Assembly: GCA_018057455.1 (NCBI GenBank)
Contig: JAGPDT010000023.1
Coordinates: 1 to 45,863, forward strand
Direction: 5' to 3'
DNA from: Flavobacteriales bacterium
GTDB taxonomy: Bacteria > Bacteroidota > Bacteroidia > Flavobacteriales_F > PHOS-HE28
DNA: 45,863 nt
Shown here: piece by piece, positions 32,006 through 33,647 of the stretch
Numbering within the stretch: the stretch's first letter is position 1
Layout of the letters: the number at the start of each line of letters is the position of its first letter
Program-made: the position numbers and the translations under genes
The notes under the pieces: generated by a model
What the model was told of the DNA's origin: nothing
What the model saw: the letters and a program-made list of their open reading frames with translations, nothing else
The model's database searches: none

Positions 32006-32548
32006 ATGGAACTTCTCGACCTGGGCATCGGCGCGCGCGTCGCGCATCCCACCATGGGCACCGGGGTGGTGTACGACTTGGATGCACGCACCGTGCACAT
32101 CTTCTTCAAAGACCATGGCGAGCAGCCCGTGAGCCGCGGCTTCGAAGGGTTGCGCGTGATCGCCCCCGGGGTGGAAGTGGAACCCGAACCCTTGGACATG
32201 GACCACGTGCGCGATGCCCTGCGCGAGGTGCTCGAGCAGATGCAGGCCCCGCAACGGCCCGTGGAACTGGCACGGCGCTACGAGGGCGGCATCCTGGAGA
32301 TCAGGCCGCGCGACACCTCCCTGAAAAGCAAGGAAATCCCCCTCGAGGACTTCTTCCACAAGATCGTCATGATCCGCGACCGCTTCCGCGTGCTGGAACA
32401 GAAGATCAATGCGCACACAGGCCTCGGCGACCAGGACAAGGTGGAACTGCAGCAGTACATCACGCGCTGCTATGGCAGCCTCACCACCTTCAACATCCTC
32501 TTCGAGGAAAAAGACGACCAGTTCATCGGGCAGAAAGGAGAGGGGTAG
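32006..32548 (+). CDS. Conserved-looking cytoplasmic protein, unknown function
   Basis: 180 residues with no signal or membrane helix. The N-terminus GARVAHPTMGTGVVYDLDARTVHIFF resembles the small beta domain (HPxxGxGxV) found in DUF3553 and the UvrD/Mfd-type RNA polymerase-binding region; this is a motif impression only. The middle is rich in Glu/Arg and the last third (DFFHKIVMIRDRFRVLEQKI) is predicted helical. A weak -7 box, TATCATTG followed by CGCC, ends 22 bases upstream. A terminator hairpin lies about 190 bases downstream. I cannot assign a function. Confidence 0.7.
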   Translation: MELLDLGIGARVAHPTMGTGVVYDLDARTVHIFFKDHGEQPVSRGFEGLRVIAPGVEVEPEPLDMDHVRDALREVLEQMQAPQRPVELARRYEGGILEIRPRDTSLKSKEIPLEDFFHKIVMIRDRFRVLEQKINAHTGLGDQDKVELQQYITRCYGSLTTFNILFEEKDDQFIGQKGEG

Positions 32549-32739
32549 TGGCAGGAGACGGATCGCAGAAGGCAAGTGGGAACAGCCACATGATTGAATG
32601 CGGAATTCGGGTGGCAGGGGACCGATGGAAGAACGCAGGTGGCATTCTGCAGCTGACCGCCATTCGGCAGGCACAAGGGGAAAGGGCAGCCCGCCGTGGC
32701 AGCCGTGCATTGTTCACAACTCATTCGCAGATGCCGGAA

Positions 32740-32774
32740 AAAGAGCTTACCTTCGGACCACGTAAGCGTTCTTT
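32740..32774 (+). terminator. Hairpin, probable terminator of the preceding transcript
   Basis: AAAGAGCTTAC pairs with GTAAGCGTTCTTT; the outer AAAGA/TCTTT helix has a two-base bulge. The 3' arm ends in a T-rich run. It separates the upstream gene from the structured RNA. The loop also contains TACCTTCG, a possible -7 box for the downstream RNA. Confidence 0.45.
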
Positions 32775-32799
32775 CTCAGCCGTGCGCTGATCATCAGAC

Positions 32800-32985
32800 A
32801 GCCCACACAGGCCATCGGTTCTCAAAACCAACATTTCTACCTCAGGGTCGGAAGATCCAAAGGGCAAAGGCGGGCCTCGCCACCTGCGGGTGGTATCCTT
32901 CGGGAACATCGAGGATTACTGAACTCTTTCTGTCCGACCCGCTCATGTGATCCATGGGTTTTCTGAACTCGGTCCTGTGTGGGCT
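32800..32985 (+). ncRNA. Candidate structured RNA, 6S-like
   Basis: 186 bases in the gap before queE, about the length of E. coli 6S RNA. AGCCCACACAGG (32800-32811) pairs perfectly with CCTGTGTGGGCT (32974-32985), and seven T follow directly, so the plus strand is the transcribed one. A second stretch of the same arms (GTTC with GAAC, AAAACC with GGTTTT) extends the stem. A perfect 8-bp helix, GGGTCGGA (32845-32852) with TCCGACCC (32933-32940), lies inside, separated from the outer stem by unpaired strands of roughly 10 and 15 bases. The apical part has hairpins CCACC/GGTGG and ATCC..TCG/CGA..GGAT. An outer stem, large central bubble and apical stem is the plan of 6S RNA. A transposon-like inverted repeat or a complex terminator are alternatives. 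Confidence 0.5.
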
Positions 32986-32991
32986 TTTTTT
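32986..32991 (+). terminator. T tract ending the structured RNA
   Basis: The closing stem of the candidate RNA runs straight into a run of T (last stem base 32985 is also T), as in an intrinsic terminator. It overlaps the -33 TTG proposed for queE. Confidence 0.6.
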
Positions 32992-33029: not shown

Positions 33030-33647
33030 ATGACCATGCCTGCCAAAGGCCTTGAACTGCCTGTGATGGAAGCGTTCCATACGCTCCAAGGCGAAGGTGT
33101 ATTCACCGGCCAGGCGGCCTATTTCATCCGGTTGGCCGGTTGCGATGTGGGGTGCACCTGGTGCGATGTGAAAGAGAGTTGGGACGCCGCCCGCCATCCG
33201 GTGATGACCGTGGAGGCCATCGTGGCCGAAGCCGTGCGCCACCCCGCGCGCATCGCCGTGGTCACCGGGGGCGAACCGCTCCTGCATGCATTGGGCCCGC
33301 TCACCAGCGCCTTGCGCGAAGCTGGTTTCCGTACCCACCTGGAAACCAGCGGCACTTCACCGCTCAGCGGCCAGTGGCACCACATCTGCTTCAGCCCGAA
33401 AAAATTCAAGGCACCGGTCCCCGGCTTCCATCAACTTGCCGATGAGCTGAAAGTGGTGGTGTTCAACAAGCATGACCTGCAATGGGCCCAAGGCCATGCC
33501 GAACAGGTCCGGGCCGATTGTGCGTTGTACCTGCAGCCCGAATGGGGCAAGCGCAACCAGATGACGCCCTTGGTGGTGAACTACGTCATGGAGCACCCCC
33601 GCTGGCGGATCTCCCTGCAAACGCATAAATACCTCAACATCCCATGA
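33030..33647 (+). CDS. queE: 7-carboxy-7-deazaguanine synthase (radical SAM)
   Basis: 205 residues. A radical SAM enzyme of queuosine synthesis that turns 6-carboxy-5,6,7,8-tetrahydropterin into CDG. The N-terminus VMEAFHTLQGEGVFTG is typical, and the cluster-binding CDVGCTWC has Cys38, Cys42 and Cys45. It continues with VVTGGEPLLH, the GGEP motif, and HLETSGT. The start is at 33030 or the ATG at 33036; neither changes the core. Its stop overlaps the ATG of the next gene by four bases (ATGA). Other queuosine genes are not in the window. Confidence 0.95.
   Translation: MTMPAKGLELPVMEAFHTLQGEGVFTGQAAYFIRLAGCDVGCTWCDVKESWDAARHPVMTVEAIVAEAVRHPARIAVVTGGEPLLHALGPLTSALREAGFRTHLETSGTSPLSGQWHHICFSPKKFKAPVPGFHQLADELKVVVFNKHDLQWAQGHAEQVRADCALYLQPEWGKRNQMTPLVVNYVMEHPRWRISLQTHKYLNIP

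Follow-up and report, generated by a model that had tools for sequence, protein, structure and literature searches.

6S RNAs restrain RNA polymerase through their resemblance to an open promoter, and they share a general plan in which 180 to 190 nt form a closing stem, a central bubble, and a long apical stem. In the Bacteroidota, dRNA-seq of Bacteroides thetaiotaomicron is reported to have detected a Bacteroides 6S RNA together with pRNAs (PMC7366714). In F. psychrophilum, 6S RNA was detected as expressed (PMC9723704), and the 6S-Flavo family (RF01685) was proposed as 6S RNA (PMC2864571). A further family, Bacteroidales-1 (RF01693), carries the Rfam annotation "6S-Bacteroidales RNA suggested." Because of this annotation, and because Bacteroides ihuae matches RF01693 and not the general 6S (SsrS) profile RF00013, the validated 6S RNA of B. 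thetaiotaomicron is probably, by elimination, the RNA filed under RF01693.

The locus compared here with these families comes from a Flavobacteriales bacterium (assembly GCA_018057455.1, contig JAGPDT010000023.1), and the window is the whole stretch of DNA that was analyzed, 45,863 nt long. The RNA occupies the gap between the gene of a 180-residue protein (p180; 32006-32548), which has no Pfam match, and queE, whose product has a radical SAM domain. The original prediction, made from the sequence, had proposed a 6S-like RNA here with a 12-bp closing stem running into a T tract and an inner 8-bp stem, and both stems proved exact: AGCCCACACAGG pairs perfectly with CCTGTGTGGGCT to form P1, which T(7) at 32985-32991 directly continues, and GGGTCGGA pairs perfectly with TCCGACCC to form P2. 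The minimum free energy fold includes both stems and reaches -80.5 kcal/mol, compared with -64.1 +/- 4.6 kcal/mol for dinucleotide shuffles (z of -3.5; 1 of 200 shuffles was equally good). Since a covariance model of the genus sequences scores 221 bits on the sense strand of locus L001 versus 21 bits on the antisense strand, and since a putative promoter of the Bacteroidota type lies upstream, the RNA is placed on the plus strand, as originally called. Bases 32800-32985 are, in our confident judgment, best explained as the stretch of a 6S RNA gene that yields the mature RNA (Table 1), and the transcription unit probably starts about 40 bases before 32800 and not at 32800 itself.

Table 1. Coordinates of the RNA gene, its leader, and queE in the window
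Feature	Position	Strand	Remarks
Putative -7 promoter element TACCTTCG	32748..32755	+	Conserved in genus, surroundings diverge
boxA-like leader element CGTTCTTT	32767..32774	+	Conserved in genus, surroundings diverge
Putative small leader hairpin TCAGC/GCTGA	32776..32790	+	From alignment, main genus clade
Bacteroidota 6S RNA (highly probable)	32800..32991	+	Full-length match to genus model R1 and class model R2
P1 closing stem, 5' arm	32800..32811	+	Partner 32974-32985
Central bubble, 5' strand	32814..32844	+	Genus ..AACCAACA.., class ..CUCAACA..
P2, 5' arm	32845..32852	+	Partner 32933-32940
P3, 5' arm	32859..32864	+	Partner 32924-32929
Conserved core GGCGGGCC	32869..32876	+	Almost invariant; matches Bacteroidales-1 consensus
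Conserved core GGATTAC	32913..32919	+	Faces GGCGGGCC; almost invariant; matches Bacteroidales-1 consensus
3' arms of P3 (32924-32929) and P2 (32933-32940)	32924..32940	+	Covariation in genus and class
Central bubble, 3' strand	32941..32973	+	Possible hairpin CTCATG/CATGGG (32942-32947 with 32953-32958)
P1, 3' arm, then T(7)	32974..32991	+	Closing stem, can double as intrinsic terminator
queE	33030..33647	+	7-carboxy-7-deazaguanine synthase by original prediction and synteny; not part of RNA

The predicted overall fold is one long interrupted hairpin. From its base upward come P1, a central bubble that is open, P2, and P3; its apical part would consist of an internal loop of GGCGGGCC facing GGATTAC and of small tip hairpins. 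In some class members (L046, L045, and L055), an apical insert, GCCGTTGACTTGTCCGG (with variants), forms a tip hairpin that is absent from the window copy. The strands between P1 and P2, which had been described as unpaired, separate the two stems but are not simply unpaired: either an AACC/GGTT extension of P1 or the CTCATG/CATGGG hairpin of the 3' strand may form, and the two compete. A 6S RNA would be expected to form a hairpin in its 3' strand when released; within the genus, 98.1% of the cells of the CTCATG/CATGGG hairpin are paired, but its sequence is almost invariant; it has no covariation support there, and its stability does not exceed that of shuffles. The separated 3' bubble strand has a mean z of about -0.7 in both genus and class, only slightly lower than the -0.2 of random flanks, and hairpins in the separated bubble strands are not clearly under selection. 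A self-hairpin of the 5' bubble strand (AACTGT...ACAGTT) is possible in several non-genus copies (L044, L045, L046, L106, L049, and L112) and not in the window copy. In the 5' strand, AACA and a U/A-rich stretch are conserved.

Comparison within the genus indicates that this structure is maintained. When 58 genomes were searched with the DNA, 27 of the 34 other genomes of the same genus each had one match, and no genome outside the genus had any. Of the seven genus genomes without one, six have no queE either, and the contig of the seventh begins inside queE, so these cases reflect a locus missing from the assembly rather than a demonstrated loss. Covariation, which the original prediction had asked to see, is present: aligning 26 copies with MAFFT gave a genus consensus fold of 45 pairs, and in 18 of these both partners differ in at least one sequence with pairing preserved. 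Covariation is also seen class-wide, as detailed below. P2 provides an example, with GGGTCGGA/TCCGACCC switching to GGGATCGC/GCGATCCC in a divergent genus clade.

Named RNA families recognize the window copy poorly. At the gathering threshold, Rfam finds nothing in the whole window; when the gap was searched permissively, RF01693 ranked first, at 19.4 bits (E of 0.49) against a cut-off of 60, in an alignment that covers the core GGCGGGCC...GGATTAC. This core match revises the original statement that the primary sequence resembles no other class. RF01685, which spans 108 positions, has no match in the RNA's own genome or in the control genomes, and RF00013 has none in the own or related genomes, while its Escherichia coli and Bacillus subtilis controls are positive. 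The window copy is too diverged for standard database models to recognize.

Intermediate sequences connect the RNA to both Bacteroidota families. Model R1 is a covariance model built without any sequence from outside the genus. Applied to 395 class genomes, it found homologues along its full length in another 13 Bacteroidia genomes, all from other families (E of 7e-15 to 5e-6), a count from which two weak matches outside the genus were left out. Three of these 13 loci are curated-level members of Bacteroidales-1 at the same coordinates (183 to 189 bits; cut-off, 60); others are sub-threshold Bacteroidales-1 and, in some cases, sub-cutoff 6S-Flavo matches, all of which overlap the R1 match. Conversely, the places to which RF01693 and RF01685 pointed when run on genomes are also found by R1 or by the class-wide model R2: the RF01685 matches in G164, G172, G097, G132, and G054 are places found by R1 and/or R2, and those in G164, G172, and G054 coincide with R1 loci. 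Because the places found with the family models are also recovered by R1 or R2, the window RNA, Bacteroidales-1, and 6S-Flavo are, as judged by homology in sequence and structure, one group. The original 6S-like reading thereby gains support. Its link to 6S-Flavo stands as homology, but the nearest named family is Bacteroidales-1, and neither family passes its cut-off.

The RNA resembles Bacteroidales-1 in length, closing stem, central bubble, and an apical GGCGGGCC facing GGATTAC. It differs in its bubble and stem sequences, its boxA-like leader, the gene order p180-RNA-queE, and its low direct score with the family model. With 6S-Flavo it shares the places recovered by R1 and R2, although its own genome goes unmatched by that family's model, and with SsrS it shares the general plan but no profile match.

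The RNA is also conserved across the class. A core-motif pattern scan of named genomes gave at least 117 stretches, most in Bacteroidota; the matches listed include Saprospiraceae, Lewinella, Phaeodactylibacter, Chitinophagales, Bacteroides, Prevotellaceae, and Flavobacteriales, and more than 100 of the loci among the matches listed fit R1, almost all over its full length. In an alignment of 92 sequences from across the class, pairing is kept in 88.6% of pair cells, versus 37 to 45% for slid controls, two-sided changes occur in 43 of 45 pairs, and the covariation score is 0.705, versus about 0.1 for the slid controls. P1 has 95.9% of its cells paired and two-sided changes in all 12 of its pairs; P3 has 83.4% paired and two-sided changes in 6 of 6, and P2 also shows compensatory changes across the class. 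These class values come from an alignment fitted to the structure and from a set picked in part by the core motif, a selection that accounts for some of the invariance of the GGCGGGCC core; the stems lie outside the search pattern, and the genus alignment and the R1 search of 395 genomes are free of both weaknesses. Fitted to the window RNA, R1 gives an E value of 2.4e-60 (its own sequence is part of the model) and R2 gives 163.5 bits; the models were calibrated briefly, and all E values are rough. Under strict filters, at which weak matches are lost, R2 has a match in 126 of the 395 class genomes, always a single copy per genome. By comparison, the cut-off of RF01693 is passed in 4 of 149 genomes and that of RF01685 (85) in 0 of 149, where only sub-cutoff relatives appear, which marks a clear gap in the available models.

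Taken together, the Bacteroidota sequences share homology in sequence and structure, and the closing stem, open bubble, and apical stem are kept by compensatory change. The gene is single and stand-alone, with one copy, a conserved, putative promoter-like element, and a T tract. Because this architecture fits, the gene stands alone in a single copy, and RF00013 finds no 6S RNA in these genomes while its controls are positive, we regard 6S RNA as the best explanation of the window RNA and hold it to be very probably correct. GC-rich DNA is able to fold by chance, and a chance structure or a mobile repeat in intergenic DNA might be suspected, but one copy per genome, strong covariation, and class-wide conservation make such an origin vanishingly improbable; covariation and copy number refute it, and the many copies that the original prediction named as a sign of a mobile repeat are not what the genomes contain.

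A closer competitor is a cis-acting leader of queE, such as a riboswitch or attenuator governing the synthesis of 7-deazaguanine, with its terminator ending at 32991. In every genus copy, as in nine other loci, some of them of the Flavobacteriales type, queE follows the RNA immediately and in the same orientation, and a terminator-like T tract stands at the end of the RNA. Yet 95 of 104 non-genus homologues have no queE match in their flank, which often extends over several kilobases; because most distant homologues are thus not beside queE, we rejected the queE riboswitch. Also, no preQ1 family of Rfam matches in the window, the fold is of the 6S type, and the terminator is formed by the closing stem P1, leaving this reading very unlikely. 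In most of the genus, p180 precedes the RNA and queE, and the order p180-RNA-queE recurs in seven other loci (L128, L095, L099, L136, L092, L177, and L174); apart from sequence, this supports reading the divergent copies as orthologs. Only slightly less improbable than a queE leader is a conserved Bacteroidota noncoding RNA that is homologous to Bacteroidales-1 and 6S-Flavo and has a function other than 6S. In its favor, the most conserved part is the apical GGCGGGCC/GGATTAC core and not the bubble, and the pRNA evidence for the class in the literature consulted comes from B. thetaiotaomicron only (PMC7366714). Nevertheless, pRNAs are reported there, 6S RNA was detected in F. psychrophilum (PMC9723704), and these genomes have no other 6S candidate.

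As a 6S RNA, the window RNA would mimic an open promoter and bind the housekeeping RNA polymerase holoenzyme, withholding the bound enzyme from promoters as growth declines. Once nucleotides are again available, the polymerase would copy the 5' bubble strand, the likely pRNA template by analogy, into a short pRNA, which would melt the lower stem and release the enzyme. For the window RNA, we infer polymerase binding, pRNA synthesis, expression, and the growth-phase role alike. A mimic of the Bacteroidota -7 motif (TAnnTTTG) in the bubble strands was not found above shuffles: at least five of six positions of CAAAnnTA were matched in 38 of 85 5' bubble strands versus 31.6 expected, with a largest shuffle value of 41.

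The leader suggests how the gene might be controlled. The Bacteroidota -7 consensus is TAnnTTTG; TACCTTCG is a putative element of this kind, for the -33 element, a candidate is the weak TTCG at 32724-32727, and transcription would probably start near 32760-32763. Just downstream lies CGTTCTTT, exact or near-exact in the genus copies that have upstream sequence. With two occurrences in the window versus 0.65 expected, the evidence for this element is its conservation, not its rarity. The rRNA operons of genus relatives are preceded by the same kind of -7 element. Because the RNA's own genome (G000) has no 16S rRNA match in a 99%-complete assembly, the rRNA leader was read in three relatives (L072-L074), whose 16S leaders have TAC[A/C]TT[T/C]G, 18 bases, and then CGTTCTTT, which occurs once more before the 23S gene. 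There, we read CGTTCTTT as the boxA of rRNA antitermination. boxA is bound by NusB and S10, a complex that CRISPR arrays also use (PMC12691694). As in the 16S leader, the 6S-leader copy comes soon after a TAnnTTTG-type promoter; unlike it, the element is separated from the -7 element by about 9 to 12 bases rather than 18, stands ahead of a 190-nt RNA and not an rRNA operon, and often has C next instead of GA. Outside the genus, a similar GTTCTT stands near the 5' end of a few copies; in most class members, the start is close to P1 and a boxA-like element is absent. The literature searched yielded no report of a boxA on a 6S gene. On these sequence grounds, we put forward tentatively, as a minority possibility, that the 6S gene of the genus is transcribed under rRNA-type antitermination, its leader boxA being recognized by NusB/S10.

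With high probability, then, a 6S RNA is now placed in uncultured, GC-rich Flavobacteriales in which current Rfam models see none, and a class-wide model unites two separately filed families, Bacteroidales-1 and 6S-Flavo, as one RNA. Should the conserved boxA-like leader prove functional, rRNA synthesis and 6S RNA would be linked directly at the level of regulation, with the synthesis of a polymerase-sequestering RNA tied to the same machinery as that of rRNA.
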